DNA from: Treponema sp.
GTDB lineage: Bacteria > Spirochaetota > Spirochaetia > Treponematales > Breznakiellaceae
Direction of reading: 5' to 3'
Length of the DNA: 45,130 nucleotides
Assembly: GCA_009787795.1 (NCBI GenBank)
Contig: WQSP01000002.1
Span: 1-45,130, forward strand
Made by a program: the position numbers and the translations under genes. Of the stretch, positions 681 through 32,092 are shown piece by piece. The notes beneath the pieces were generated by a model that worked only from the letters and a program-made list of their open reading frames with translations, ran no database searches and had not been told where the DNA came from. Positions within the stretch are counted from its first letter, which is position 1; every line of letters begins with the position of its first letter.

Positions 681-1199
681 TCAACGAATGGAGCTCAAAT
701 TAATCCTGTCGCCTTCCCTTATCCCTGTTTTTAAAAACCACCCTTGAGGCACTTCCAATGCATAGCGTACAGAACGGCTGGATGCAATTGAACTTAAATC
801 GTTGGGATGCATATCCTTTATGTCGATAATCCTTCCGTCGCTTGAAATAAACGCGATGGAAAGCGGGATAAGCGTGTTCTTCATCCAAAACGACAAAATT
901 TCGTCTTTTTCAAAAACGAAAAACATACCCTGCCCTTCGGGAAGATTTTGTCTGTGCATTAAACCTTTCGCTCTTTCTTCAGGCGTGCGCGCAATCTCAG
1001 TCTTTACCGTTGCAAGCACAACCCCGTCTCTTTCGATTGGAAATTCATGTATATCCAGCTTCTGCGAATTACAAGAAACCAAGAAAAAAATTAAGATTAT
1101 TAACCACAAACCACACGAACTTATACTTCGATTTCCTTTTCGCTCTCCGTGAAAATCCGTGAAAATCCGTGGACTATATCTTTTATCTCTAGAATTCAT
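681..1199 (-). CDS. DUF192 family lipoprotein
   Basis: Translation contains IARTPEERAKGLMHRQNLPEGQGMFFVFEKDEILSFWMKNTLIPLSIAFI (DUF192 signature) after a lipobox-like LIILIFFLVSC. The 5' end overlaps repeat sequence, so the start is uncertain. Confidence 0.85.
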   Translation of the reverse strand: MNSRDKRYSPRIFTDFHGERKGNRSISSCGLWLIILIFFLVSCNSQKLDIHEFPIERDGVVLATVKTEIARTPEERAKGLMHRQNLPEGQGMFFVFEKDEILSFWMKNTLIPLSIAFISSDGRIIDIKDMHPNDLSSIASSRSVRYALEVPQGWFLKTGIREGDRINLSSIR

Positions 1200-1787: not shown

Positions 1788-1940
1788 TAAGAGGGTCCAC
1801 GAATTTACACGGATTTTCACGAAGCAAAATTCCATTGTCCACGAATTTACACGGATTTTCACGAAAAACCTTAGTACTAATCCGTGGCAATCCGTGCTAA
1901 TCCGTGGACCATCCTCTTAATTTTAATCCGTGGACCATAT
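1788..1940. repeat. Composite intergenic element of two direct copies of GTCCACGAATTTACACGGATTTTCACGAA followed by inverted AATCCGTGGACC copies
   Basis: Exact copies at about 1795-1823 and 1838-1866; inverted units at about 1876-1912 and 1925-1940; ends taagagggtccacg / cgtggaccatcctctta are near-inverted. Confidence 0.85.
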
Positions 1941-6895: not shown

Positions 6896-7834
6896 TTAAA
6901 GCCCTGCGATTTCTTCCAAAGAAAGCCCGGTGATTTCGCTGACGAAGTCCGGTGTATAACCTTTGGCGATTAGATTTCTGGCAATGGTTCTAGCGCCATT
7001 CTTCTCGCCGATTTTCTCACCTCTCTTTTCGCCTATTTTCTCACCCCTTCTTTCGCCTCTCTTTTCACCTTTTTCTTCGGCTTTGCGTATCGCGCAGGCT
7101 CTGTCCATTGCGAATAACTTTTTTCTGAACCAATAGTCTATATCGTCTCCGGTCATTGTTGCGAGATTGAATGCTTTTTCATCTGCCGTTTTTATCGCCG
7201 TATCCATCCTGACTACCTCCTCACGAAGTTCTCTTGGGCTGTTCTTGTCGAACCATGCAAGCCACCTGTTTAACGGATCGTTTAAATCCAAATGCTTTTT
7301 CTGCTTCCTGTACTTTACCATGTTTATGTAGTGTATTTCCAGCGCATTCGACAGTATTATATCATGCTCCGTATCTTCACGTAAATGAAAACAACTGTGA
7401 AAATGCCTGGTATTCGGGTAATTGTAATTAACTATGTTTATTCCTATCAAATCGGGCAGTTCAATGTAATCCTCTCCTGCTTTAAGGCTTCTTGAGTATT
7501 CACGGGTCAGATAAAAGAGGCTTCGCCTGTTCATGTTATGTTCGTCATCAATCTGCACCTCGATATTAACCATGGCTCCGGTTGGCAACATGGCTCTTAC
7601 GTCCAGAGTACAGGACTTTCCGTCCATAATTTCCGCCATGTAGGTAGTGTTTTCCAGGATTTCTACAGAAGTGAACATTTCATTCCCTGTTCTTCCCAGA
7701 ACCGCATTGATAAAACCCAGAAGTTGGATTTCATCTCCCTTTTCCCCAAAAATTTTGAAGAAAAGATAATTGTTTAGAGGGTCGTACAAAAACGATCCAG
7801 GTTCAATTAAATTTTTCATACCCTTATATGGCAT
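6896..7834 (-). CDS. Rpn family recombination-promoting nuclease / PD-(D/E)XK putative transposase
   Basis: YDPLNNYLFFKIFGEKGDEIQLLGFINAVL...LDVRAMLPTGAMVNIEVQI...RRSLFYLTREYSRSLKAGEDY, C-terminal GEKxGE repeats. ORF track start 7924 lies in repeat DNA; Met at 7834 or 7819 is more plausible. Confidence 0.88.
   Translation of the reverse strand: MPYKGMKNLIEPGSFLYDPLNNYLFFKIFGEKGDEIQLLGFINAVLGRTGNEMFTSVEILENTTYMAEIMDGKSCTLDVRAMLPTGAMVNIEVQIDDEHNMNRRSLFYLTREYSRSLKAGEDYIELPDLIGINIVNYNYPNTRHFHSCFHLREDTEHDIILSNALEIHYINMVKYRKQKKHLDLNDPLNRWLAWFDKNSPRELREEVVRMDTAIKTADEKAFNLATMTGDDIDYWFRKKLFAMDRACAIRKAEEKGEKRGERRGEKIGEKRGEKIGEKNGARTIARNLIAKGYTPDFVSEITGLSLEEIAGL
7004..7079 (-). repeat. In-frame 12-bp degenerate tandem repeat encoding GE(K/R)(R/I/N) units
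   Basis: Translation EKGEKRGERRGEKIGEKRGEKIGEKNGA; plus strand ttctcgccgattttctcacctctcttttcgcctattttctcacccc... Confidence 0.8.
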
Positions 7835-7895: not shown

Positions 7896-8157
7896 TTTGT
7901 CCACGAATTTCCACAGATTTTCACGAAGAGGGAAGAAGACCTTTATCACAAACCACACCAACAAGCTCGCAAGCTCGCTTACCCGAACATAGTCCGCAGT
8001 CTCTTTCTTAAACCTTTCCTCTTTCCTTGGCGTTCTTTGCGATCTTGGCTTTTAAATTGCTGCGGGAGCAGCTTGGCGAGAGGTCTTTTGCTTTTAATCC
8101 GTGTAAATCCGTGGACCCTCTTGGACCCTCTTCCTTGGCTTTTCAATTGCTGCGGAT
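7896..8157. repeat. Second composite repeat-rich intergenic region, same family as 1788-1940
   Basis: gtccacgaatttccacagattttcacgaagaggg at 7898-7931, inverted aatccgtgtaaatccgtggaccctcttggaccctcttcc at about 8096-8133, and a near-identical pair TTGGCTTTT(A/C)AATTGCTGCGG at about 8046 and 8134. Confidence 0.8.
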
Positions 8158-13989: not shown

Positions 13990-14897
13990 AGAAAGTTGTC
14001 TTTTTACCGCTAATTTTCATCTCATGTTTTTTTCTTGGCGGCTGCGCAGGTTCTGCGGCTTCTGCGGAAGAATACTTCGCTATAGGCATGGCTTACTTTG
14101 AGCTTGGAAAATACGAGGAAGCGGAAAAATGGCTTACAAGGGCAAGACAGTCAAACAGGACAATGGTTGCTTCCACATACAACCTTGGTCGTCTTGCGTT
14201 CGAAATGGGAAGATATGAGGATGCCGCAAGACATTTTGAAAGCATTTTAAGAAGGGACAGGGAAAATGTTCTTGCCCTTAAAGCCGCAGCATATTCAAGA
14301 ATAATGACAGGCGACATGGAAAATGCGGAAAGGCATTATGCGAAACTTTTGGAACTTGTCCCGGAAAGCGCGGACTCGGGCTACAATCACGCGCTTGTGT
14401 TATTCGCAATGGAAAGATACGCAGACGCGGAAACTGTCCTTGAAAGATACCCTGTTGCCCTTCTTGAAAACAACGACAACCTTTTGCTTTATGCGAGAGT
14501 CAGGGCGGCATTGAACAAAGTTGAAGCCATCGATCATTTTGCGGCATGGCTGGAAACGAATTCAAATCCAAAAGTGCGCTACGAATTCGGGCAATCCCTG
14601 GAAAAACACAATTTTTACGCAAGAGCGCTTGGCGAATACAGAAAAGCGTATGCCGATTCCACTGCCGCTTCCGTCGACCCGAAAAGAAGCGACGTGCGTT
14701 TTGCAATTGCAAGAGTTCTCCTGATTGCCGACGGCTCTTCGGGCGAAGGAATCACGGAGCTGCAGGGAGCGATTACGGAAGGTTTTAACAACATTGCATC
14801 TGTCGAAGGATTGGTTTCCAGAGTGTCAGGCTCCAACAGGGAAACAATAAGAAACATCATTAACAGTTTGCGGCAGGCATCAGAAACTAATCCTTAA
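13986..14897 (+). CDS. TPR-repeat lipoprotein
   Basis: MKKVVFLPLIFISCFFLGGCAGS lipobox; TPR motifs (EEYFAIGMAYFELGKYEEAEKWLTRARQ); ATGA overlap with previous gene. Confidence 0.82.
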   Translation: MKKVVFLPLIFISCFFLGGCAGSAASAEEYFAIGMAYFELGKYEEAEKWLTRARQSNRTMVASTYNLGRLAFEMGRYEDAARHFESILRRDRENVLALKAAAYSRIMTGDMENAERHYAKLLELVPESADSGYNHALVLFAMERYADAETVLERYPVALLENNDNLLLYARVRAALNKVEAIDHFAAWLETNSNPKVRYEFGQSLEKHNFYARALGEYRKAYADSTAASVDPKRSDVRFAIARVLLIADGSSGEGITELQGAITEGFNNIASVEGLVSRVSGSNRETIRNIINSLRQASETNP

Positions 14898-17800
14898 CGA
14901 TGTACCAAGCTGTATGTCAAAAACAATTAAATCCGTATATTGATTCTCGTTGTATCTCAACTTGATAAATGTCGTAAAATTCATCCTTCCCAAAATTCTG
15001 ATTGTTTCTTCATGTCCAAGTATAATGCTCCATCTTAAATCGTCTTGTGTTTTGTCAAAAATAATTTCCAGTGTTTCTTTTCTTAGCTGTTCGTAACTTG
15101 AATTGAAAAAAAGCGTAAACCCGTTCCAATTTTGATTTTCATCGATTAGCGAAGAAACCCAGTTGTAAAAAACGCTTAAAAGGCTTTTTTTGGTTGGCGC
15201 TTCCCATCCTGCGACAAAACTTTCAAGCCAATAACCGTCTGTGCGTATTGTAAAAGTGTTTGCAAATCCAAGAACGCCTCCCGTAAATCCCCTGAAACCT
15301 GCATTTAACGAAGATTGCACCCTCCAAACAGGCGTTGCGTCTTTTGGAATTATTACCGCAGCTTCGATGCCGTGCGAAAACTCGTCTGTTTGGTAAAATG
15401 CAAAAATCGGCGTATTTCCCATAGCGCCGAACATGTTAATCGAAGAAAAGCCAAGGCTTCCTGCAATGTTCAAATTGTCCGCTCTTGTATCCAATTTTTG
15501 CTCCAAAATTCTTTCGATGCGAAAATTGATTCGTGAAGGAACAAAAAACGAAGCCAAATTGTACATTGAAGGAAGATTGATCCTTACGCTAAAATGATCG
15601 TTAAAAGACGTATATTGGGAAATATTTGCAGACGGCGAATTCATTATCGCCTCGTCCATTGCGGTTTCAAGGTCGGGAGAAAAAAGCGAATAAAAGGGAA
15701 ACACTTTCCAAAGAGCAAACGAATCTGTGACCAATTCAAAAAACTTGTCCGCATCATCCGTTACATCGTATCCCGAAAAAAAGACGTTCTTTTTAAAAAA
15801 GCGTCCCGCCCTGAAATTTACGCCGGTTCTTTCAAAAACAACCGGAACATCAAGAAACAGCGAATATTCGGATAACGTAAGATTGTTGGCGCCGGTAAAA
15901 TTTGTCATGCCCTGAAACGCAAGAACGGCTCCCACCGGTTTTGTCCTTTGCGTTATTACAACCTGCGATATTGTCCTTCTTGCATCGGTGCCTGTTCCCG
16001 AATCCGGAACAAGCGGCGCAAAAGTTCTTAGCCACAGTTCGCCGTAATTTTCATTTTCCTCAATTCTGTTTTGTTTTGTCCATAAAGCCTCGCCCGAAAC
16101 CAAAAATGAGGGGATATGTTCGTTTTTGGGAATGAAGCCCGTACTGGCATTCCATCTTTGTCTGAGTCTTCCAAGTTCATAAAGAGCGTCTGCGTCAAAT
16201 TTCGCATGAAAATCGGAAGCAAAACCGATATTAAAAGAGTGACGCGCCTCTTCTGTTCCGGGCGATGCAAAAAACGTCTCTCTCGCATAAAACGCTCCCA
16301 TTGTTTTTGATATTTCATGATCCGCGTTCCACAAAAAAGCGTCGTCTGCCGCAGTAAAACCAAGATTGCCCGAAACATTTATGCCAATCAGGGTAACTTG
16401 CGCGCCTGTTCTGGAAATCGCGCTGCCTGAAAATTGCGCGCCGCTTTGCGCATTCGCTTCCGATTCAAATGCGGAACTTATCGAAAAATTTTCCAAAACG
16501 GAAATGTTTCCCAAAGAAAGGATAACGCCCGGTTTTGAATAATTGACAAAAGCTCCCGCATTTGCCCTGTAAAGCATAACAGGGTCTTCCAAAATAATTT
16601 CATCGATAAAAACGGAACCCGCATCCAGAGACTGCGCCTGATTCAGGGGATCTATAAAAATTGCAATGTAGCTTGTCCTTCTTTCGTTGTCGGGGTTTGC
16701 CCTTACTCTTCTGTAAACGGGAGGAGCAATGTCTTCGTTAAATCCGTCCACAAAAACGGATGCATTTTCTCCCTGATACCTGACGGTTACTTTTTTCCAC
16801 ATGTTCGGATTGTTATGCGTAAACGCCCTGATTGGAATTTTGGCTTCCAACTGCGGATTGGACAACGAAGCGTCTCCTGTCAGCACAATGAAACTAAGGA
16901 TTGCGTTTTCGTTTGACGTGTTTGGCACTCTTGCAAAAAAAGACAGTTCCCTGTAATCGCCAAGAGGCACTTCCCGAATCCTTCCGTCGACACCCGCGCT
17001 TGCTCCCGGAGGCATATTCTGCCAGCGGATTTCCAAAACTCTCTGCGTGTTTTCAAACGGGTGCAGTCTGTTTACAATCGACGGATATGCGGATTCCAAA
17101 TTGTTTGCTCCAATCTCTCTTGTTTCAGAAGCTGTAACAAGATTTGTAACTGGATTTATTTCATTGTTTTCTTTTGCAACAGCCCTGAAGATCGAACTTC
17201 TTACAACAGGAGGAGCAAGAATTACGCGCATAAAAATGCTGCCTGTGCCGTTGTAAACTGCGGCTATTCTCAGGTATTTTGCATCTGCAAGTCTTCTTCT
17301 TTCTTCGTCGTTAATTTTAAACCGCGCAACAGTGTAATCGCCCGAAGCAAAATAAAACGCATTTGCATCTGTTTCATTCGGAAGAAGGGATTTTTCCCAT
17401 ATAAGGTTACTGTTTTCCGATATTTCAAAATCGCCCGTTCCAAGAGAGCCTATTTGCACAATGATCCTGAAATTGCCGGGAGGAAGGGCGTCATACAATC
17501 TGAAAGGAATTTCAATTTCCGAAGCCCGCGATAAAATTTCCGCATTCAATCCCAAAGGAACCTGATAACCGCTCCATTCGCCGTCACTTAACGAAATCTC
17601 CGCCGTTAACGCTTGAGCGTTTCCAAGCTGCGAATCCCTGACAGGGTAAGGCCTGTTTATCCCCGAAACAACAGGAGCGTTCCATTCTATCGTCATTAAA
17701 TTGCTGCCAAGCACATTGTTGTTAAAATAATTGCGGTAAACCAAATCAACGCGGTTTGCGGCATTCAGGCGCATTCCGTCCGCCAAATTAAAAGGATGCG

Positions 17801-19625
17801 ATATGAAAGAGGTTTCATGCGGCAAAGGAAGCGTTGTTTCGTATCCTTCCATTCCCGCAGCGCGGTAGAGACCTGTTGTATCCGCTTCAACTGCCGAGAA
17901 TCCCGCGCTTAAATGAGCATTGAAATTTTCAAATTTCCATGCGGCTTTTGCGCCAAGACCTACGGTTCCCGCGCTTCTTGAATCTTCCTGCGAAAACGAA
18001 TCGTCTGTCAGGTTCCATCTGACACCGAGCGCAGCTTGCGCGGTAAAATATTCCGCGCTGTTTTGATAAACCGCGCCAAGACCTGCCGCAATGCTTCCAA
18101 AACGCAATCCGTCGGTTTTTTTAAGATACGTTATGCGAATAGTTTCATTTTGACCTGCGGGGCTTTGGATTGACACTTCGCCCGACGACAAATTGTAATT
18201 GAAATTCGAATCCTGAATACCGCTTCGCCAAACCTGTATGGAACCGGGGATTGCATCGGTACCGATAAAATATCCGCTTGCGGAATTGAAATTTGCAAAC
18301 CTTAGCGCAATGTCTCCCGAAAATACGGATCCCGAAGGAACATAGATTTCAAACGCTTCGCCAGCCAACGGCCATCTGCTTTGCGGATCCCGTCTTGAAG
18401 CGCCGTTTCCAATCTTTGCAAGTTCAAATAACGCCCTGCCCCTTGTCTGCGTTAACGAAAGAACGTTATCCGCAAACAGGGAAGCGTCAATCTCCACAAG
18501 TTCAAAACCTTCGATTTCCCTGCCTGTAGAAAGTCTTATAAGGGACGCCCTTTCTGTCGAGCTGGAAGGCGCGTCATAAACATTACGCCGTTCAAACGGA
18601 GAAAAAGTTCCCGGTTGAAAAATTATCAAAACAGAATTGCCCGCGATTGTAAAATCCCAAGGGTTCTGCGAATCCGTTTCATAACACTGCGGATAATCCG
18701 CCAAATCGACATTCACATTTCCCGAATCAAACCAATCCTGAACATCGCGCAAAAACCCCGAGCCAGAATAGCTTCCCAAACCGATTTTATTCCCCGCATA
18801 GTGAACAGCAATCATTCCCGAAGGTCTTATGCTCATTTCCAAAAGACCATGCTCCCTTGAAAACGCGTATTCGCCTGAAGGCGCAATTCTCCATCGTCTT
18901 CCGTTTGATTCGGTTATTTCACCCCTTTCATCCTCGATATAAACCGTAATATCCGATTCGATGTTGGTGTCAGGCAAAACAAACGAAATGCCGTGAATTG
19001 CACCGGCAGGCGAAATGTCGGTGTATGTTCTTTCCCTGCTTCCCGTAAAAACACGCTCCTCCCTGGAAGCCGCATCGTATCTTAGCAACGCGTGAATGTT
19101 CAGTTTGTCCAAACCGAAGCGTCCGTAAAAACCGAATGAAGCAGGCGAATCTCCGCCAAGGTCCATGTACGGAAATGACGGAAAATCAAGCCCCGTGTTT
19201 CCGATTCCGGCATACTGAACGAACTCTCCCGGTTTTCCCCGGTATCCCGCCCTGTATGCATTTTGACTTGAATCGTCAAGGAAACTTGCCTCTACAAACC
19301 ATCTGTCGTTTATCCAAAGAGCCATTGTCAAATCGACTTCCTGTTTGAAAAGAAGGGGCGTGTCAGGCGATATGAAGCCCGTACCGACAGGAGATGCAAA
19401 AAACCCGAGGTTTCCCAAAAGCTCACCTTTCCACGAACCTGTCAAAAAAAGAACAACGTCGGAATCTCCAAGCGAATACCTCATGAATTCCCTTGGGTCT
19501 TCGTTTAGTATGCGACGGCGCAAATCGTTCATGTCGAGTTCGTGCGCAGGCTCGTCATCTGCAAAAATCGCATGATTGCAAATTACAATGAGGATGACTA
19601 TTAGAGCCTTACGCAGAACATGCAT
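14880..19625 (-). CDS. Very large secreted outer-membrane-type protein, C-terminal beta-barrel character
   Basis: From Met at 19625: MHVLRKALIVILIVICNHAIFADDEP signal peptide; jelly-roll-like modules (VFIDEIILEDPVMLY), long beta-rich C-terminus ending LGTSLRISF. ORF track start 19724 extends into the divergent gene. Confidence 0.75.
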   Translation of the reverse strand: MHVLRKALIVILIVICNHAIFADDEPAHELDMNDLRRRILNEDPREFMRYSLGDSDVVLFLTGSWKGELLGNLGFFASPVGTGFISPDTPLLFKQEVDLTMALWINDRWFVEASFLDDSSQNAYRAGYRGKPGEFVQYAGIGNTGLDFPSFPYMDLGGDSPASFGFYGRFGLDKLNIHALLRYDAASREERVFTGSRERTYTDISPAGAIHGISFVLPDTNIESDITVYIEDERGEITESNGRRWRIAPSGEYAFSREHGLLEMSIRPSGMIAVHYAGNKIGLGSYSGSGFLRDVQDWFDSGNVNVDLADYPQCYETDSQNPWDFTIAGNSVLIIFQPGTFSPFERRNVYDAPSSSTERASLIRLSTGREIEGFELVEIDASLFADNVLSLTQTRGRALFELAKIGNGASRRDPQSRWPLAGEAFEIYVPSGSVFSGDIALRFANFNSASGYFIGTDAIPGSIQVWRSGIQDSNFNYNLSSGEVSIQSPAGQNETIRITYLKKTDGLRFGSIAAGLGAVYQNSAEYFTAQAALGVRWNLTDDSFSQEDSRSAGTVGLGAKAAWKFENFNAHLSAGFSAVEADTTGLYRAAGMEGYETTLPLPHETSFISHPFNLADGMRLNAANRVDLVYRNYFNNNVLGSNLMTIEWNAPVVSGINRPYPVRDSQLGNAQALTAEISLSDGEWSGYQVPLGLNAEILSRASEIEIPFRLYDALPPGNFRIIVQIGSLGTGDFEISENSNLIWEKSLLPNETDANAFYFASGDYTVARFKINDEERRRLADAKYLRIAAVYNGTGSIFMRVILAPPVVRSSIFRAVAKENNEINPVTNLVTASETREIGANNLESAYPSIVNRLHPFENTQRVLEIRWQNMPPGASAGVDGRIREVPLGDYRELSFFARVPNTSNENAILSFIVLTGDASLSNPQLEAKIPIRAFTHNNPNMWKKVTVRYQGENASVFVDGFNEDIAPPVYRRVRANPDNERRTSYIAIFIDPLNQAQSLDAGSVFIDEIILEDPVMLYRANAGAFVNYSKPGVILSLGNISVLENFSISSAFESEANAQSGAQFSGSAISRTGAQVTLIGINVSGNLGFTAADDAFLWNADHEISKTMGAFYARETFFASPGTEEARHSFNIGFASDFHAKFDADALYELGRLRQRWNASTGFIPKNEHIPSFLVSGEALWTKQNRIEENENYGELWLRTFAPLVPDSGTGTDARRTISQVVITQRTKPVGAVLAFQGMTNFTGANNLTLSEYSLFLDVPVVFERTGVNFRAGRFFKKNVFFSGYDVTDDADKFFELVTDSFALWKVFPFYSLFSPDLETAMDEAIMNSPSANISQYTSFNDHFSVRINLPSMYNLASFFVPSRINFRIERILEQKLDTRADNLNIAGSLGFSSINMFGAMGNTPIFAFYQTDEFSHGIEAAVIIPKDATPVWRVQSSLNAGFRGFTGGVLGFANTFTIRTDGYWLESFVAGWEAPTKKSLLSVFYNWVSSLIDENQNWNGFTLFFNSSYEQLRKETLEIIFDKTQDDLRWSIILGHEETIRILGRMNFTTFIKLRYNENQYTDLIVFDIQLGTSLRISF

Positions 19626-19632
19626 CTTATGA

Positions 19633-19640
19633 TATAATAG
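19633..19640. promoter_or_regulatory. Overlapping divergent -10 elements (plus TATAAT 19633-19638; minus TATTAT 19639-19634)
   Basis: gatataatag in a short divergent region; minus strand also has TTGAAA at 19663-19658 with an 18-bp spacer. Confidence 0.55.
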
Positions 19641-19650
19641 CTTTAATTTC

Positions 19651-19938
19651 ATGGTTGTTTCAATGATACAGATAATATTCGAGGTTCCCGATTCCGTAAA
19701 CATAAAGGAAAAAAGACGCGTCATAAAGTCGATAATCGAAAAAATGAAACGGCGTTTCCAATTGAGCGCAGCCGAGGTTGATCTTCAGGATTCTCTTGCT
19801 TTCTGCCAAATAGGAGGGGCTCTTGTTTCAAACTCGCGCACATTCGGAGAGTCGGTTCTTCAAAAGGCGTTTGCCATGATAGAAAACGAAACATCTGTCC
19901 GCATTCAGGACATGAAAATACATTCGGAGGAATTTTAA
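19651..19938 (+). CDS. DUF503 family protein (YlxP-like)
   Basis: IIFEVPDSVNIKEKRRVIKSIIEKMKRRFQLSAAEVDLQDSLAFCQIGGALVSN matches the DUF503 pattern; alternative Met at 19663. Confidence 0.85.
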   Translation: MVVSMIQIIFEVPDSVNIKEKRRVIKSIIEKMKRRFQLSAAEVDLQDSLAFCQIGGALVSNSRTFGESVLQKAFAMIENETSVRIQDMKIHSEEF

Positions 19939-22873: not shown

Positions 22874-24868
22874 TTAAGGGAAAATCTTTCTGTTTTTATT
22901 ATCCGGGATGCCCGTTTTTCTAAAAAAATACGTGTTTATCTGATCCCGCCATTCCTTTGCGTTAATTAACTGCATTTCAAAACGCGAAAGCACGGATTCA
23001 TACACTTCTTTTTGGAGCGAATCCTTAAGGCTTTTCCAGTCTTCCGCCATTTTAAAGGTTTCATCGTATCCTTCAAAATGAGTGTCGTAAATGTTTTGCA
23101 AAAGCGTATTTCCGTTTTTCATTTTAAAATCGTAGCGCAATCTGTGAAAGAACAATATCAGGTTCTCGGGGCATCTTGATGCGTCCCTAAAAATTGCCGC
23201 GTTTTCATTTGAATACTGCTCTGTATACCCTGTTCCCGAAGGCGTGCGATCTATGCCGATTGCATTTGCATCCGCCCTGTGATACGTTCCCCATCTTGAA
23301 AACTCGTAACCCTCGATATTCGGTCCGTAATGGGAATTGGGAGTTACCATAAAGCAAACGCCGAAGGGCGCATTGTATTTTTCGTATGCGGGATATGAAT
23401 TTAAAAGTATGTCTTCGATTTTTTTTGCGGTCTCCCCTTCTCCGAATGAAAGAGCGCACCATTCTTGCGCAATTTCCTTTGCGCTTAATTGCGGGTTCCA
23501 TGTCAATCTTCCGTAGCCGTAAAGATTTGCCTGCGCCAAAGTATGCCCTGTCCAATTGTTGTCAAGACCGACATTTACAACAGAGGCAAACCCTTCGATG
23601 TTTGACAATCCTTCCTTGTATTTTCCGATTAAATCCATAATGCGGAATTTTCTTTCCGTATTTTCATTGTTGACAATGTCAAACCTTGCAATATCCTGCC
23701 AAACATGCGGAAGGAAACACAAATCTATCTGATGCCCCGTATATTCCTGCGTTATCTGCAATTCCATTACATGACGCGTTTTTAAAAGAGCGCCGAAAAG
23801 AGGCGTTACAGGTTCCCTTACCTGAAAATCGTAAGGCCCGAATTTAATCTGAAGAATAACGTTTTCCAAAAATGCGCCGTCCAACGGCATAAAGTGATCG
23901 TATGCCGCCCTTGCGCGATCGAAACTATGATCACGCCAATCCTGCTGACAGTTGTAAACAAAGCAGCGCCAGACAATTTCGCCGCCAAAGGGTTTAACTG
24001 CTTTTGCAAGCATATTTGCCCCGTCTGCATGAGTTCTTTCATACTGAAACGGACCCGGTTCGCCTTCGGAATCTGCTTTTACAAGGAAACCTGCCAAGTC
24101 GGGGATATATTTATAAATAATCGAAGCTCTTTCTTTCCACCATGCAAAGACTCTTTCGTCCAGCGGATCTGCCGTTTCAAGCTTTCCTAGCGACCACGGC
24201 GCACCAAAATTAATGCTTATAAAAAGTCTAATGCCGTATCTTCTGAAAATTGCCGCCAATTTTGCGGCTTCCCTTAAATATTTTTCTGTAATCAACAATT
24301 TTGCGTTTGCCCTGACATTTACATTGTTAATGGAAAGCCTGTTGATTCCCGTGCTTGCCAAAAGACGCGCGTAATCTTCGATACGCTTGTTGTCAAAATC
24401 AAAATTGCCATCTTTGTAAAAAAGAGAGCCGCCTGCGTATCCGCGCTCTATTGTGCCGTCAAAATTGTCCCAGTGATTTATCATTCTTAGGGGAGACGCG
24501 GGCGTTTCGTTTATCTGAAGCCCGTGTGTTATTTTTCCCTGCGCAAGCAGAAAAAGAAAACGAAACACGCCGTATAAAAGACCGTTGTCGTCTGCCGCGC
24601 AAATTAAAATCTGGTTTTCCGTTATGCTTATGGAAAAGCTTTCCGGTTTTAAATACGAATCAAATTCAAGAAAGACACCCGAATTTTTCAAGTCCGCCTT
24701 TTTTTGCACTTTTGGAACAAATCCCAAAAGACGATTAATTCCGCTTGAAAGTTCCCTTACGGCAGTTGCGCACACTTCGCCGCCTTTTTGTGCATATATG
24801 ACTTCGGGAACCTTGATTTTCGCAGTTACTTTTCTTTCCTGCAGCCAGCAGTCGTATTCTTTTAACAT
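22874..24868 (-). CDS. aguA: Alpha-glucuronidase, GH67
   Basis: MLKEYDCWLQ..., GLLYGVFRFLFLLAQGK, NHWDNFDGTIERGYAGGSLF, ARLLASTGINRLSINNVN, ADSEGEPGPFQY, VWRCFVYN; length 664 aa. Confidence 0.92.
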   Translation of the reverse strand: MLKEYDCWLQERKVTAKIKVPEVIYAQKGGEVCATAVRELSSGINRLLGFVPKVQKKADLKNSGVFLEFDSYLKPESFSISITENQILICAADDNGLLYGVFRFLFLLAQGKITHGLQINETPASPLRMINHWDNFDGTIERGYAGGSLFYKDGNFDFDNKRIEDYARLLASTGINRLSINNVNVRANAKLLITEKYLREAAKLAAIFRRYGIRLFISINFGAPWSLGKLETADPLDERVFAWWKERASIIYKYIPDLAGFLVKADSEGEPGPFQYERTHADGANMLAKAVKPFGGEIVWRCFVYNCQQDWRDHSFDRARAAYDHFMPLDGAFLENVILQIKFGPYDFQVREPVTPLFGALLKTRHVMELQITQEYTGHQIDLCFLPHVWQDIARFDIVNNENTERKFRIMDLIGKYKEGLSNIEGFASVVNVGLDNNWTGHTLAQANLYGYGRLTWNPQLSAKEIAQEWCALSFGEGETAKKIEDILLNSYPAYEKYNAPFGVCFMVTPNSHYGPNIEGYEFSRWGTYHRADANAIGIDRTPSGTGYTEQYSNENAAIFRDASRCPENLILFFHRLRYDFKMKNGNTLLQNIYDTHFEGYDETFKMAEDWKSLKDSLQKEVYESVLSRFEMQLINAKEWRDQINTYFFRKTGIPDNKNRKIFP

Positions 24869-24877
24869 AATTAAAAC

Positions 24878-25942
24878 CTAACCTTTCTTTTTAATCGCTT
24901 CCCACAAACCCTGCAAGTAACTGAGTCCTATTGCCCTGTCATAAAGACCGTAACCGGGAACAGAAACCTCTCCCCATATTTGCCTTCCGTGATCCGGGCG
25001 CAAAGGACCGTCAAAACCGATGTCGTATAACGCTTTCATTATTTCGTACATGTCCAAAGAGCCGTCGCTTGACAAATGCGCGGATTCTTCAAAATCGCCC
25101 GGTGCATTGTGTTTAACGTTTCTTACATGCGCAAAGGAAATGCGTCCTTTTAAATTTCTTATAATGTCAGGGATATCGTTGTCGGGGTTTGTTCCAAGGC
25201 TTCCCGAGCATAATGTAACGCCGTTATACGGACTGTCGACAAGTTTTACAAGCCTTAACAAATCTTTTTTGTTTTTCATGATTCTTGGAAGACCAAAAAC
25301 TGACCATCCGGGATCATCAGGGTGCATGCCCATTTTTATTCCGTATTTTTCGCATGCGGGAATTACCGCCTTTAAAAAATATTCCAGATTTTTAAAAAGG
25401 GATTCTTCGTCAATATCATGATACATTTTAAAAAGTTCTTTTATGCGCGCCATTCGCTCAGGTTCCCATCCGGGAAGAAGGCATCCACCGGCTTTTTCCT
25501 GCATTACTTCAAACATATTGTCGGGGTTTATTTTTTCTATAAGTTTGTGATCATAAGACATGACAGTAGCGCCGTCGGGACGCATTTTTGCAAGGTCGGA
25601 TCTTGTCCAGTCGAAAACCGCCATAAAATTATAGCAGACAAGATTGATTCCCGCTTCATGAATTATTTTTAATGTATCGATATATCTTTCGATATGCATG
25701 TCGCGTTCGCTTGAACCTGTCTTGATTGAATCGTGGACATTTACGCTTTCAATTCCCGCAATGCTCAAACCTTCGTCTTCCACGATTTTTTTAAGCACAA
25801 AAACCTCTTCTTTTTTCCATTCTTCGCCCGGCTGTTTTCCGTACAAAGTTGTAATTACCCCGTTAATGCCGGGTACCTGACGTATTTTATCGAGAGTAAC
25901 AGGATCGTAGCCGGGTCCAAACCAGCGCATTGTCATTTTCAT
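24878..25942 (-). CDS. uxuA: Mannonate dehydratase UxuA
   Basis: MTMRWFGPGYDPVTLDKIRQVPGINGVITTLY..., CYNFMAVFDWTRSDL, KMGMHPDDPGWSVFGLPRI, LCSGSLGTNPDND, RPDHGRQIWGE. Confidence 0.95.
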   Translation of the reverse strand: MKMTMRWFGPGYDPVTLDKIRQVPGINGVITTLYGKQPGEEWKKEEVFVLKKIVEDEGLSIAGIESVNVHDSIKTGSSERDMHIERYIDTLKIIHEAGINLVCYNFMAVFDWTRSDLAKMRPDGATVMSYDHKLIEKINPDNMFEVMQEKAGGCLLPGWEPERMARIKELFKMYHDIDEESLFKNLEYFLKAVIPACEKYGIKMGMHPDDPGWSVFGLPRIMKNKKDLLRLVKLVDSPYNGVTLCSGSLGTNPDNDIPDIIRNLKGRISFAHVRNVKHNAPGDFEESAHLSSDGSLDMYEIMKALYDIGFDGPLRPDHGRQIWGEVSVPGYGLYDRAIGLSYLQGLWEAIKKKG

Positions 25943-28269
25943 TTTTTACTCGCTTTAAAGCTTAAAAAGCTTTCTTTTAAATTTTCGCTGTACGCGCGAA
26001 GAATGATTTCTTTTCCGGACTGCCCCGCCCTGATTAAAACAAGCGCTTTTCCGCATGATGTGACAACTTTAGAATTTGCAAACCCGAGATTTTGATTCAA
26101 ATCCGAAGAACACGCGCCAAGAATTTTTGCGTCCCCTTCCAATGCAAACTCGACCAACACTTCTTCGTTTGGGCATAATTCCCCGTTCTTGTCGGTTATG
26201 TTAATCTCTACATGAGCGACTGCGCCATTTTCAATTTCTTTTTTATCGGGAATCAATTTTATTTTTTGCGCCTCTTTTAATGAAGTTTTTAGTTCATAAG
26301 AGCATACTTCCTTGTTATTGTTTATTCCTTTTATTTCGATTTTTCCGTAAACATATTCAATCGGAAATTCGATAATTCCGTTTGCAAACTCACTTTTTTT
26401 TCTTCTGCCCATTTTTTTGTCGTTAATGAAAAGCTGCGCTTCTTCGCAATTTGTAAAAACCGCCAATTTAACGTTTTGCCTTTCAAAATACGAATGATTC
26501 AAATGCGAAGAAAGTTTCGGGAAAGACCAGCGTCCCCTTGAATAATCGGGTTTAATATGCTGGTCGTAAAAAGCCATGTAGATCATTGGCTCTTCTGTCC
26601 AAATGCTCTTTCTGAAATATGCATTCGGCTTTAAAAAACCGCAGATGTCTATTATGGAGCCTGACCATCCTTTTGCAGGCCAGGGACATTCGCCAAGGTA
26701 ATCGATTCCCGCCCAGATAAACTGCCCTATTACATTGTCGTTTTCCAAAACAAACTGCCACGGATTTTTTTCGCTGACATCTTCAAAGTTTGTGCCGACG
26801 CTTGAATAAAACTCGTAACATTCGGTGCCGACAATCGGTTTTTCTATTCCCTTTGTATAATGTTCGTATAACGGTTCGTGGTAATTAAACCCGAGAACAT
26901 CCACATCTTTTGCCATTTTTTTTGTGAGCTTTACAAGTTCCCCGGGAGCTGCTCCCACAAGGGTTCTGGGATTTGCATGAGGAGCAAGCGCGCACGTTAC
27001 GGGACGATCGTCAAGGGAGCGCACAATATCGCAAAGCGTTTTTTGAATCGCAATCATGCTGTCCTGCCCCTGATTTTCAACTTCGTTTCCCACGCTCCAC
27101 ATGAACACGCACGGATGATTTATATCGCGCAAAATAAAATCGGTCAAATCGCGCTTGGCGTCTTCGTCAAAATGATCCTTATAATAGCCGCTTTTCCATT
27201 TGTCAAAACATTCGTCTATAACGTAAAAACCCATTTCGTCGCAAAGATCCAAAAACTCTTGTGCGGGCGGATTGTGACTTGTCCTTATCGCATTGCACCC
27301 GATGCTTTTTAATATGTTCAAACGCCGCCGCCATACATCATCGTAATATGCGCTGCCTGCGATTCCCGCATCATGATGAAGACACACGCCTTTTAATTTT
27401 ACCTTTTCGCCGTTAACTGTCATGCCCTTGTTGTAATTAATTTCTATTGTGCGAATGCCGAAAGTAACTTGTACAGGAACCGAAGATTCATTGTCACCCA
27501 AAATTTCCAAAACGGCGCGGTACAAATTCGGATTTTCTGCCGACCACAATGCAGGATTGTCAATTTTTAAACTTTGATTTATTTTAATTTCGTTTTTACC
27601 GTTAAAATTGACTGGCACTTTTTCTTCTGCAACTAACTTATTGTCATGAGTCAATATTTTTAAATTCAATTCGTGTAAATTCGTGTTAATCCGTGGACTA
27701 TATGAATTAATGTCCGCAGTTATTTTTACATCGGCTTGTTTTTTGTCTTTTGACAATTGGGTCTTTACTTTTACGCCCCAAGTTTTAACATGAACAGGCG
27801 GAAGGACTTTAAGTTCGACATTGCGGTAGAGACCGCTTCCCGAATACCAGCGATCGGGTTCTTCGCAGCCATTGTCAAGACGAACGGCGACAAGGTTTTT
27901 CCCTTCTTTTGCAAAGCCTGTAATATCAACTTCGAAGCTGACATATCCGTTTGCGCGTTTAGCCGCTTCCTTTCCGTTTATAAAGATTGTGCTGTTCCTG
28001 TATGCGCCGCCAAAATAAATGAAAATCGTCTTTTCGTTAATATTTGGAAGCAAAAACTCTTTTCTGTACCAGCAAACGCCTTTCCAGTCAAAGAAACCCT
28101 GCATGTTTTGGGGTGTCCAGCCGCCTGTCTCTCCCTTAAAAAAAGGCCTTGAAATGACCCAATCATGGGGAAGATCGACGTTTTCCCATGTTCTGTCGTT
28201 AAAACCTTCACTTTGGGCGTTTTTTTCGTCTCCAAGAATAAATTTCCAATTATGGTTAAAACTGTTCAT
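25939..28269 (-). CDS. Beta-galactosidase-like glycoside hydrolase, GH2
   Basis: DRTWENVDLPHDWVI, GSGLYRNVELKVL, KLKGVCLHHDAGIAGSAYYDDVWRRRLNILKSIGCNAIRTSHNPP, VFMWSVGNEVENQG; 776 aa, no obvious signal peptide. Confidence 0.92.
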   Translation of the reverse strand: MNSFNHNWKFILGDEKNAQSEGFNDRTWENVDLPHDWVISRPFFKGETGGWTPQNMQGFFDWKGVCWYRKEFLLPNINEKTIFIYFGGAYRNSTIFINGKEAAKRANGYVSFEVDITGFAKEGKNLVAVRLDNGCEEPDRWYSGSGLYRNVELKVLPPVHVKTWGVKVKTQLSKDKKQADVKITADINSYSPRINTNLHELNLKILTHDNKLVAEEKVPVNFNGKNEIKINQSLKIDNPALWSAENPNLYRAVLEILGDNESSVPVQVTFGIRTIEINYNKGMTVNGEKVKLKGVCLHHDAGIAGSAYYDDVWRRRLNILKSIGCNAIRTSHNPPAQEFLDLCDEMGFYVIDECFDKWKSGYYKDHFDEDAKRDLTDFILRDINHPCVFMWSVGNEVENQGQDSMIAIQKTLCDIVRSLDDRPVTCALAPHANPRTLVGAAPGELVKLTKKMAKDVDVLGFNYHEPLYEHYTKGIEKPIVGTECYEFYSSVGTNFEDVSEKNPWQFVLENDNVIGQFIWAGIDYLGECPWPAKGWSGSIIDICGFLKPNAYFRKSIWTEEPMIYMAFYDQHIKPDYSRGRWSFPKLSSHLNHSYFERQNVKLAVFTNCEEAQLFINDKKMGRRKKSEFANGIIEFPIEYVYGKIEIKGINNNKEVCSYELKTSLKEAQKIKLIPDKKEIENGAVAHVEINITDKNGELCPNEEVLVEFALEGDAKILGACSSDLNQNLGFANSKVVTSCGKALVLIRAGQSGKEIILRAYSENLKESFLSFKASKK
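27669..27703 (-). repeat. Copy of the dispersed repeat read in-frame inside the GH2 CDS
   Basis: + strand attcgtgtaaattcgtgttaatccgtggactatat; minus translation YSPRINTNLHEL. Confidence 0.75.
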
Positions 28270-28276
28270 TGCATGG

Positions 28277-28326
28277 ATTATATCATATATAAAATAGTTG
28301 ATAAATACGCCATACGATGGTATTAT
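28277..28326. promoter_or_regulatory. Divergent promoter region between GH2 (-) and GH10 (+)
   Basis: Plus: TTGATA 28298-28303, 17-bp spacer, TATTAT 28321-28326, then SD agaggtaa and ATG 28345. Minus: TATAAT at 28282-28277, 7 nt before ATG at 28269. Confidence 0.65.
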
Positions 28327-28344
28327 GAAACAAGAGGTAACTGT

Positions 28345-29502
28345 ATGAAAATTAAATTGTTGTCTGTTTTAATTCTGGCATTTGTTCTTTTTGGCTGCGA
28401 ATCAAGCGGCTCATCGGGTACGCAAAGGGCATCTGCGGGAAATCAGGCGCCAAATCACTTTAATACTCCGTTAAAAACCGTTTATCAGGATTATTTTCCA
28501 ATAGGCAATATCGTCAATAACAATTATTTAAGAGGCGATTTTTTTGAAATCCTAAAAACGCATTTTAGTGTCGTCACAAGCGAAAACAACATGAAGCCCG
28601 ATCATTTGGGCCCGCGCGAAAGGGGCGGCAATTACAATTTTGCTCCTGCGGACAATCAAATCAGGATAATGGCGGAAAACGGCATTCGCATGCACGGTCA
28701 CACTCTTATCTGGCACAGTCAGACTCACAGATGGATGACAGAAGGAACTCCCGAACAAGTCAGGGAAAATTTGGTCAATCATATCAATACGGTAATGGCT
28801 CACTTTAAGGGAAGAGTTACATCATGGGATGTTGTAAACGAAGCCGTAAGGGAAAGGGTCAACCCGGGCGAAAATTACGAGCTTTGGAGAAATCATTTAA
28901 GACAGGAAAGCGGCTGGTTCAAAGCGCTCGGTGCCGATTATATCGATCTTGCATTCAGAACGGCAAGAGCCGCAGACCCGGCCGTCACGCTTTATTACAA
29001 CGATTATAATCTGGACAATTCAAGAAAAGCCCAGGTAGTCGCCAACATGGTCAGAGAAATTAACGCAAGATACAGATCGGAAGGCAATACAAGAAACCTT
29101 ATCGAAGGTGTCGGAATGCAGGCGCATTACGGACTTACAACAAGCGTTCCCAATGTGCGCGCCAGCATAGAAAGATTCATCGCTTTGGGAATCGAAGTTT
29201 CCATAAGCGAACTTGACGTTGAGGTAAGAAGCGTTGGAAGCGGATCATTCGGCATCGGTCATTCCAGACGTTTAAGCGATATGGAACAAAGACAGCAGGC
29301 AATCAAATATGCGGAACTCTTTTCGCTTTTCAAACAATACAAGGATCATATTGCGCGCGTAACGTTATGGGGCATCGATGACGAACACAGTTGGAAATCG
29401 CTTGGCAATCCCTGCCTTTGGGACGCAAGATTGCAGCCAAAACAGGCGTTCTTCGCAGTCGCAAACCCGACCGAAGCATTGGGTATCGATGAGAATCATT
29501 AA
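28345..29502 (+). CDS. Endo-1,4-beta-xylanase, GH10, lipoprotein
   Basis: MKIKLLSVLILAFVLFGCESS lipobox; SENNMKPDHLGP, GHTLIWHSQTHRW, TSWDVVNEAVRE, LYYNDYN, GVGMQAHY, VSISELDVEV, VTLWGIDDEHSW. Confidence 0.94.
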   Translation: MKIKLLSVLILAFVLFGCESSGSSGTQRASAGNQAPNHFNTPLKTVYQDYFPIGNIVNNNYLRGDFFEILKTHFSVVTSENNMKPDHLGPRERGGNYNFAPADNQIRIMAENGIRMHGHTLIWHSQTHRWMTEGTPEQVRENLVNHINTVMAHFKGRVTSWDVVNEAVRERVNPGENYELWRNHLRQESGWFKALGADYIDLAFRTARAADPAVTLYYNDYNLDNSRKAQVVANMVREINARYRSEGNTRNLIEGVGMQAHYGLTTSVPNVRASIERFIALGIEVSISELDVEVRSVGSGSFGIGHSRRLSDMEQRQQAIKYAELFSLFKQYKDHIARVTLWGIDDEHSWKSLGNPCLWDARLQPKQAFFAVANPTEALGIDENH

Positions 29503-31060
29503 TATAGCTGCATTTATAACCGTATTATTGACATTATGCGCATGCAGTTCGAGCGGCAGCATAAACAAATTGTCTGATACCAATACCGATAACGAAATCG
29601 AAGAAACGTTAAACATAAACTTTAACGAAATGCGGCAGGAAATTGACGGTTTCGGCGGCTCGAACGCGTGGACAAGACTTCCCGACAATCCGCAGGTTGC
29701 AGCCAATGTTGTAAGGCTTTTGTATTCAAGAACCGAAGGAATGGGCTTTACGATTTTGCGTAACAGAATTCCTTTTCGCGAACGCCTTCCCGGGGATAAC
29801 AGCCCCGGTCTCAATGACGGGTTCATGGTAAGAAAAAGCGATCATACTTATTCGTATACGGAAAATCCAAACGGAACAAAAACATTCGATTTAAACTGGA
29901 ACAGCTGGGATTTGTCCGCAACCAGAAATCTTATTAGAATGATAAAAAATCTTGGAAGGGACGGCCCCGAGGAACTTGTATTAATGAGCACGCCGTGGAC
30001 GCCGCCAAGCAATCGCGTAACGCAATGGAAAGAAGATGTAACGGGTTTAAGGGGCAATCTTAATTATGCAATGGACTGGTCAAAGCCCGATGTCTGGGGA
30101 CGGTTAAAAAGGGAACACTACAACGACTATGCGGACCTTCTTGCGGATTATGCCGCCAATTTTCAATCGCAAATGGGACATCCGCTCTCGATTCTTTCCG
30201 TTCAAAACGAACCAAACTGGAAAGTAGATTATGAATCCGCATACTGGAGCGGAACCGATTTAAGGGATTTTATCAAGGTAATTGCAAATCGTTTCCCCAT
30301 GAAAAACGTTGCAGTGGGCGAAAGCGGTCTTGGCATAATGATGCCCGAGTTTGAAAATTTTAACATTAATTTCAACGAAATGATTCTTCCGTCATTGGAT
30401 GATCCTGTTTCGCGCAGGGTTATCACTCACATCGGTCTTCATCAATACAATGGAGCCAGCGATCCTTCCATGAGAGCCGGCGCAATTGAATTCCCCGGCA
30501 TCATTGAATCGGGCAAACGTTTCTGGCAAACCGAAGTGTCGGGATCGGGCGCGCATCTTCCGCGCGGAACAGGAATTGACAACGCCCTTTATTACGCAAG
30601 AATGATCCATTGGGATATGACTTTGTCGCAGACAAACGCATTTCTTTTTTGGTGGCTTTGGACAAACAATTCAAGCAATACTACAGGCAGTTTGATAATT
30701 GCAGACGGAAACAGGGTAACCGCCCATCACAGGCTTTACGCGATGGGGCAATTTTCCCGATTCGTCCGCCCGGGATGGCGCAGAATCGAATGCGACGCAT
30801 CTTCCTTGTGGGGCGTATTTTTAAGCGCCTACAGAAATCCAAAAACAAAAGAAATTGCAATCGTAATAATAAATGACAGATATGCAGAATCGACGATTTC
30901 CTTGAATTTGCCGGGCGGCGAATTCGACAGGCTTGATGTCTGGCGCACATCGGAAAGCGAAAAACTTGAACCGCTTGGAAGACAGAGAACAACAGGCGGG
31001 AAAACGGACATTTTGCTTATGCCGAAGACGATGATTACATTGTACGGAAGGGTAAAGTAA
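29489..31060 (+). CDS. GH30 family glycoside hydrolase (glucuronoxylanase/xylosidase-like), lipoprotein
   Basis: MRIINIAAFITVLLTLCACSSSGS lipobox; IDGFGGSNAW, STPWTPP, LSVQNEPNWKVDY (acid/base Glu), FWQTEVSGSG (nucleophile Glu). Start overlaps upstream GH10 stop by 14 nt. Confidence 0.85.
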   Translation: MRIINIAAFITVLLTLCACSSSGSINKLSDTNTDNEIEETLNINFNEMRQEIDGFGGSNAWTRLPDNPQVAANVVRLLYSRTEGMGFTILRNRIPFRERLPGDNSPGLNDGFMVRKSDHTYSYTENPNGTKTFDLNWNSWDLSATRNLIRMIKNLGRDGPEELVLMSTPWTPPSNRVTQWKEDVTGLRGNLNYAMDWSKPDVWGRLKREHYNDYADLLADYAANFQSQMGHPLSILSVQNEPNWKVDYESAYWSGTDLRDFIKVIANRFPMKNVAVGESGLGIMMPEFENFNINFNEMILPSLDDPVSRRVITHIGLHQYNGASDPSMRAGAIEFPGIIESGKRFWQTEVSGSGAHLPRGTGIDNALYYARMIHWDMTLSQTNAFLFWWLWTNNSSNTTGSLIIADGNRVTAHHRLYAMGQFSRFVRPGWRRIECDASSLWGVFLSAYRNPKTKEIAIVIINDRYAESTISLNLPGGEFDRLDVWRTSESEKLEPLGRQRTTGGKTDILLMPKTMITLYGRVK

Positions 31061-31076
31061 AAAAGACTTTTACTTT
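31054..31076. terminator. Perfect 9-bp inverted repeat AAAGTAAAA-AAGAC-TTTTACTTT between convergent genes
   Basis: Self-complementary arms with T/A tracts on both strands; sits between GH30 and GH10 and includes both stop codons. Confidence 0.45.
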
Positions 31077-32092
31077 TTATCCCGCTTCTGTCCTTCTTCG
31101 ATTAATGAACCTACAACCGGTTTTTCCTTTTTGTTTTCGTCGAAAAGGAGCGGCCAGTTTTTTCGTTTCGGCACAGGGAAATCGTCAAGCCATGTATAAC
31201 AGTCCGCGATGCCCCATGTTGTAATGTTCTTTACCGCAGAAGAGGTGGAAGCCGCGCGAAAAAGATTCTTATATGTTTCTGCCTGTTTTACAATTCTTTC
31301 TTCGGGTCTTGATTTGAAAAATTGCGATGATTCCCTTTTTTCGTCCCATTCATAAATGGAAATGTCAACTTCCGTAAATTCTATTTCCAGCCCCAACTTT
31401 GAATATTTTTCTATCGCGTTAACGATAATTTCTTCTTTCGGAAAATTGTAATACCAATGCGCCTGAATGCCCACTCCGTTAATCGGAACGCCCTTGTCAA
31501 GAAGCCTTGAAAGAAATTCCAATGAAACGTCCATTTTTTTCCCCGATTCGTTGTTGTAATCGTTGTAAAAAAGTTTTGCTTTTGGACAAATCTCCCTCAT
31601 TCTTTTAAAGGCAAATTCGTAAACATCATTGCCGCAAATTTTATACCAATCGCTTAATCTAAAACCGTTTTCATCGCCCTTGTCAACATCGATAACTTCG
31701 TTTAGCACGTCCCACGAATACACCACATCGCCATATCGGTTTGCAACTTCTGCCATGTGGTCTTCCAGTCTTTTGTACAGTTTGTTTTTTGAAACAGTTT
31801 CGCCGTTGTCCAAAAAAAGCCACGAAGGATTCTGATTGTGCCAAAGCATGACATGACCGCGCATCGGCATATTGTTTTTTCTTGCGTAATTAGCTACCAG
31901 ATCACTGTCATCCCATTTATACATGTTTTCTTCGGGATGAACAGGACCGAATTTCATTCCGTTTTCCACTGTCAAAGTCGAAAAATGCTTTTTTATAAGC
32001 GCATCATATTCCGGGTCGTTCATCATTTTGCCGCATACAGCAGCCCCTACATGGAATGAATGTTTCCACGCGTCTTTTAAACCAATGCTCAT
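31070..32092 (-). CDS. Endo-1,4-beta-xylanase, GH10, without signal peptide (predicted cytoplasmic)
   Basis: TVENGMKFGPVHPEE, RGHVMLWHNQNPSWL, VYSWDVLNEVID, LFYNDYNNE, GVGIQAHWYY, EIEFTEVDISIYEWDE, TTWGIADCYTWLDD. Confidence 0.94.
   Translation of the reverse strand: MSIGLKDAWKHSFHVGAAVCGKMMNDPEYDALIKKHFSTLTVENGMKFGPVHPEENMYKWDDSDLVANYARKNNMPMRGHVMLWHNQNPSWLFLDNGETVSKNKLYKRLEDHMAEVANRYGDVVYSWDVLNEVIDVDKGDENGFRLSDWYKICGNDVYEFAFKRMREICPKAKLFYNDYNNESGKKMDVSLEFLSRLLDKGVPINGVGIQAHWYYNFPKEEIIVNAIEKYSKLGLEIEFTEVDISIYEWDEKRESSQFFKSRPEERIVKQAETYKNLFRAASTSSAVKNITTWGIADCYTWLDDFPVPKRKNWPLLFDENKKEKPVVGSLIEEGQKRDKK

Follow-up and report, generated by a model that had tools for sequence, protein, structure and literature searches.

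Introduction

Repeats lying in frame within genes were first highlighted as a peculiarity of Rickettsia, and REPs inside genes were reported later. The Rickettsia palindromic elements are palindromic sequences of ~150 bp that occur in frame within unrelated conserved genes (PMC10969869). REPs of the GTAG and CGTC types are located mostly between genes, near gene ends, and are rare between divergent genes; some of them provide stop codons, and some lie wholly within genes, DNA repair genes included (PMC3733652). Cyanobacteria carry small dispersed repeats (Elhai et al., 2008, as cited in PMC2884548), and the Nostoc heptamer consists of GGGGA(C/T)T repeats (PMC4692102). No description of dispersed repeats occupying loops of conserved proteins throughout a genus was found in the literature searched.

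The window, a 45,130-nucleotide stretch of Treponema sp. DNA, contains a mostly intergenic repeat, here called family A, that a sequence-only reading had noticed in frame within a GH2 beta-galactosidase gene. That reading had likened the repeat to the Rickettsia palindromic elements while regarding its sequence as unrelated to theirs, and both judgments are borne out. Like those elements, family A is present in frame within unrelated conserved genes (GH2, PcrA, PrmC, Dxr, a radical-SAM protein and others) and is apparently compatible with protein function (PMC10969869). The general idea of in-frame repeats is stronger than had been supposed. Family A is 29 bp long, as against ~150 bp (~100-150 bp for a palindrome of that class), is not palindromic (folding z = +0.19 for the GH2 copy), and is translated in several reading frames rather than as one conserved peptide. 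With the cyanobacterial dispersed repeats and heptamers it shares very short dispersed units, some of them in tandem (PMC2884548, PMC4692102); these short, dispersed and tandem features are of the SDR/STRR type, and the movement of family A is presumed. A word from sister species, GGGGA(A/G)T, belongs to the same class as the heptamer of Nostoc, whereas the family A word differs (PMC4692102). Repeat DNA scattered through the genome appears to be a source of the variable loops in conserved proteins.

Family A is multiplied in one genome

The window comes from a 1.83-Mb draft genome that is 71% complete (G000; other G numbers denote related genomes). A conservation profile of 91 aligned G000 copies defines a 29-bp core, TYCGTGNNAATYCGTGNNAATYCGTGGAC, in which three 10-bp units of the form AATYCGTGNN are followed by the fixed end GGAC (GTGGAC). 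Allowing up to one mismatch, the whole genome contains 69 copies as compared to 0 in the reversed control; with up to two mismatches, 81 copies and 0 control matches were found in 1,432,258 bases. Sister species hold 0-3 copies of the 29-bp core versus ~80 in G000. Strings of the repeat sequence matched nothing in the literature searched.

Called genes make up 91% of the sequence, yet 63 of the 81 copies are intergenic, with seven across gene ends, five N-terminal and six internal to genes. Gaps between divergent gene pairs are depleted in intergenic copies (5/46 vs 83/297 gaps; Fisher p = 0.011). Single copies account for 47 of the 64 clusters, and opposite-strand neighbors within clusters are nearly all in the -+ arrangement (GTCCACG...CGTGGAC), with one +-. 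Inverted pairs display strong hairpin folding (z = -7.3 and -10.1). A viral origin was dropped, there being 0 viral contigs.

Table 1. Positions of the GH2 gene and of family A copies in the window.
Feature	Position	Strand	Remarks
GH2 beta-galactosidase-type gene	25939..28269	-	776 aa, intact; Pfam PF02837, PF00703, PF02836, PF16355, PF18565
Family A repeat core (in GH2)	27670..27698	+	Exact match to genome-wide consensus
Family A repeat, 5' end of DUF192 ORF (681-1199, -)	1145..1174	+	Probably leader or over-extended ORF
Family A cluster, intergenic	1795..1933	two copies on -, two on +	GTCCACG...CGTGGAC arrangement
Family A repeat	7899..7927	-	~66 bp upstream of PDDEXK_2 (Rpn-like) gene 6896-7834 (-), start ~7834
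Family A repeat, two units, intergenic	8087..8114	+	

Similar sequence also adjoins a family A copy at two other places in G000 (L019, L030). A link between the repeat and the PDDEXK_2 nuclease was considered and set aside: the repeat lies within 600 bp at two of five homologous places, as against 9% of genes generally, which is too few to judge. The window additionally contains a 1614-aa ORF (14880-19724, minus strand) with no Pfam match at E 1e-5.

A single repeat arm lies in a variable loop of an intact GH2 enzyme

GH2 orthologs from the same genus, at 54-70% identity, align end to end, demonstrating that the GH2 gene is real, intact and not chimeric; a chimeric assembly was considered and rejected, as these orthologs match GH2 on either side of the repeat. 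The repeat itself, originally placed at 27669-27703, is genuine but had been drawn slightly too long on its right side, its core TTCGTGTAAATTCGTGTTAATCCGTGGAC being the 29 bp at 27670-27698. The 28-mer that had been singled out has a single match in the window, at precisely 27669-27696, where dinucleotide shuffles give an expectation of 0. The GH2 copy is a single arm without an inverted partner. As originally described, it lies in frame within a full-length conserved gene and is read as ..ADINSYSPRINTNLHELNLKIL.., the core giving SPRINTNLHE at residues 191-200 (S191 partly) within the PF00703 beta-sandwich domain (160-273). When aligned to solved GH2 structures, the repeat falls on a short turn that links strands in the second domain. 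A single-sequence AlphaFold model was useless as a fold (mean pLDDT 31.7); this same weak model predicts strands at 179-189 and 200-206, which bracket the repeat (pLDDT ~40-50).

The expectation of a 10-15-aa insertion specific to this lineage was not supported for GH2. In 13 orthologs, the stretch between the fixed flanking strands ranges from 22 to 30 aa; at 26 aa, the G000 stretch is one residue longer than that of the closest ortholog (25 aa; 70% identity) and exceeds the commonest length (23 aa) by three. Neither the SPRINTNLHE peptide nor the repeat DNA word is present in any of the 13 orthologs compared; the same peptide in homologs without the DNA repeat, the finding named beforehand as contrary to the insertion idea, was thus encountered in none of them. 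Because the loop of the closest ortholog, at 70% identity, is just 1 aa shorter, GH2 offers no clean empty-site comparison. On these alignments, the repeat occupies, or has taken the place of, a loop of variable length instead of merely extending it. The gene is part of a glucuronoxylan-degradation cluster (window 22874-32092) that encodes GH67, UxuA, GH2, two GH10 xylanases and a GH30-like enzyme.

In-frame copies occur in at least 13 conserved proteins

G000 was searched for arrays of three related words within called genes, away from gene ends. Eighteen internal arrays were found, as compared to one in the reversed sequence; two of the 18 are in N-terminal signal regions. The other 16 are distributed over 12 proteins, and Dxr, with a more decayed copy, is a thirteenth, giving at least 13 conserved proteins (by Pfam/NCBIfam) in all. 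The array hosts are GH2, PcrA helicase, PrmC (two arrays), a B12-binding radical-SAM protein (three), UvrC, MtaB, GltX, PurL (two), a DEAD-box helicase, an MsbA-type transporter, a Gfo/Idh oxidoreductase and a transglutaminase-like protein. Many of the arrays fall in linkers. The UvrC array (342-349) is located between one domain that ends at 329 and another that starts at 403, that of PurL (971-980) just ahead of the GATase domain (987), that of the MsbA-type transporter (53-61) ahead of the ABC domain (82), and that of the DEAD-box helicase (431-438) in the tail.

In-gene copies use both strands and several frames, encoding for example STNLHGFSQIN, VHEFSRNEHEK, SRIRENPCKSVD and NPCESVRIRG, and therefore no single peptide is conserved. 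For the same reason, the proteome search for SPRI(N/F)T(N/D)-type inserts that had been proposed would recover just part of the set.

Sister species lack the repeat or carry other words in the same loops

Matches of the radical-SAM protein to many congeners stop at query residue 252 and restart at 284-290, with 2-7 aa between them in several congeners. Only 6 bases (2 aa) separate the matches in G009 as against 33 aa in G000, and 6 bases in G030 as against 32 aa. In PcrA, G008 has 3 bases (1 aa) between query residues 472 and 500, replacing 473-499. Both proteins are ~26-32 aa longer in G000, at the repeats, than in repeat-free sister species, and on these comparisons they are the clearest insertion-like cases.

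Two loops, those of PrmC and Dxr, were chosen because G000 carries a repeat there. The PrmC loop ahead of the LDLCTG strand contains CCACAGAGTACACAGAGTATCACAGAG in G008, AACGCAGAGGCACAGAGACACAAAG in G027 and G061, CCACGAACCACCACGAACCACCAC in G012, GGGAATAGGGAATGGGGAATGGGGAGT in G030 and GGGAGTAGGGAGTGGGGAGTGGGGAGT in G009. The G030 word (C11:37220-37246) falls within prmC (C11:36897-37793), CACAAAG words of G016 (C24:12474-12504) lie between two parts of the prmC match, and GGGAGTG words of G026 (C97:5922-5955) lie within the prmC match. The Dxr loop of G035 holds a whole inverted pair, TTAACCACGAACCAACACC...GTTCGTGTAGTTCGTGTGGTTCGTGGTTAA, whose word is present in eight copies in that genome, one of them at C46:5260-5284 within dxr (C46:4624-5775). 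Some of the words found in the PrmC and Dxr loops are dispersed elsewhere in the genomes that carry them. The abundant words differ by species: counting overlapping matches in one array separately, there are 347 CACARAG pairs in G019 and 146 in G008, and 113 GGGART matches in G009, while family A is found mainly in G000. In G037, a genome of the same order, the reversed GGGART control gives 81 matches, and this genome seems to hold another heptamer repeat family.

A blind test for tandem periodicity placed its top window in the loop for 5 of 29 PrmC proteins (2.3 expected), 5 of 29 Dxr proteins (1.6 expected) and 1 of 13 GH2 proteins (0.4 expected). As the loops were chosen beforehand and the periodicity excess is modest, the case for a genus-wide pattern of repeat words in shared loops is suggestive and falls short of proof. 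A broader proposal, that throughout the genus each species keeps remaking the hypervariable loops and linkers of its housekeeping proteins out of the dispersed words then multiplying in its genome, is one that we hold tentatively, at somewhat less than even odds. In this genus, many sister species are available in which shared loops of essential proteins hold repeat words that differ from species to species, and this set allows direct tests of how repeat DNA enters proteins, of the rate of loop turnover and of the neutrality of the added peptides. If true, loop rebuilding from dispersed words would be a general route from non-coding repeat DNA to protein sequence.

Origin of the in-gene repeats

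We favor, with a probability of about 0.7, the reading that family A is a small dispersed and probably non-autonomous repeat that is spread by some agent, filtered by selection and kept where it is harmless. The element comprises two to six 10-bp AATYCGTGNN units ending in GTGGAC, often joined head to head as inverted pairs that would form hairpins, and has multiplied in one species (G000). Its copies may land, or be copied, widely, with most persisting just between genes. The few in-gene survivors would be those that leave the reading frame open and place their 10-30 encoded residues where a surface loop or interdomain linker can accept them, the peptide probably being tolerated rather than useful. 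On this reading, the single arm in GH2 now makes up the turn that joins two strands in the second beta-sandwich domain, where loop length was already variable among species. A search of G000, at 71% completeness, found no transposase or other mobilizing agent for family A.

The main rival holds that the words are made on the spot, as unstable loops undergo replication slippage and template switching, and that similarities between sites reflect a shared mutational bias with no mobile element involved. The quasi-tandem 10-bp units, their variable number and the hairpin-forming inverted pairs are consistent with such a process, as is the failure to find target-site duplications among 12 pair arrangements, where the mean match was 1.25 against 1.54 expected by chance. 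A ..CGTG/..TGTG form ending in GTGG is common to several word types, and the family A word is also present in Bacteroidales, Chloroflexi, Acidobacteria, Calditrichia and another Treponema, pointing to wide transfer or repeated origin. However, a 29-bp core with fixed ends has ~80 copies in one species against 0-3 in its sisters, and slippage leaves a shared, defined end (GTGGAC) at unrelated sites unexplained. We consider local slippage unlikely, although it deserves serious weight.

A quite improbable alternative is that the in-gene copies were selected for a function, such as new binding loops or regulatory RNA hairpins. In its favor, the reading frame remains open and particular loops are hit again and again in different species, but the peptides that different words encode at a given site are unrelated and loop length is free to vary, which fits tolerance better than a specific function.

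Very improbable, in our estimation, is a REP- or REPIN-type element moved by a tyrosine (Y1) transposase. Family A resembles REPs in its shortness, intergenic bias, inverted pairs, avoidance of divergent gaps, provision of some stop codons and copies inside genes, here including PcrA and UvrC (PMC3733652). REPs are 20-40 bp palindromes with a GTAG or CGTC end, whereas family A consists of 10-bp tandem words that are not individually palindromic, its arm is not self-complementary, and its ends are GTCC/GGAC (PMC3733652). The combination of inverted pairs with single copies and the amplification within one genome are like REPINs (PMC3116915), but in family A singles outnumber pairs, contrary to the mostly inverted doublets of REPINs, and Y1_Tnp (RAYT, PF01797) has 0 matches in this repeat-richest genome, which is 71% complete. 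As for MITEs, terminal inverted repeats are present in the inverted pairs and are missing from single arms such as the GH2 copy, and the 12 pair arrangements contain no excess of target-site duplications.

That the GH2 match is a coincidence of loop evolution, in a loop hypervariable in both sequence and length, is refuted by the agreement at 29 of 29 consensus positions, with 0 such matches expected.

Copies at gene starts and ends

Family A also touches gene boundaries. The DUF192 ORF had been offered as a second case with the same peptide frame. The peptide YSPRIFTDFHG is indeed present, at residues 8-18, but it makes a weak example: it precedes the lipoprotein signal LWLIILIFFLVSC and the DUF192 domain (66-167), and may therefore belong to an untranslated leader. 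Copies at the 5' ends of other ORFs are placed likewise, and these, together with the DUF192 copy, were left out of the coding cases. Adjoining the family A copy, in the DUF192 signal-peptide region, is a second repeat word of the GTTCGTG type, TTAACCACAAACCACACGAAC (window 1100-1120).

A few family A copies provide the stop codon of the preceding gene (..STD*). Five G000 genes, hydF-like and rluB-like genes among them, end in ..STD* or ..STN* through a repeat-derived stop (contigs C1, C5, C24, C33 and C37). A GH3-like gene (G000:C7:20372-22117) and a metal-binding lipoprotein-like gene (C27:13622-14584) each carry in-frame inverted repeat pairs at the N-terminal end, in the neighborhood of the signal peptide.
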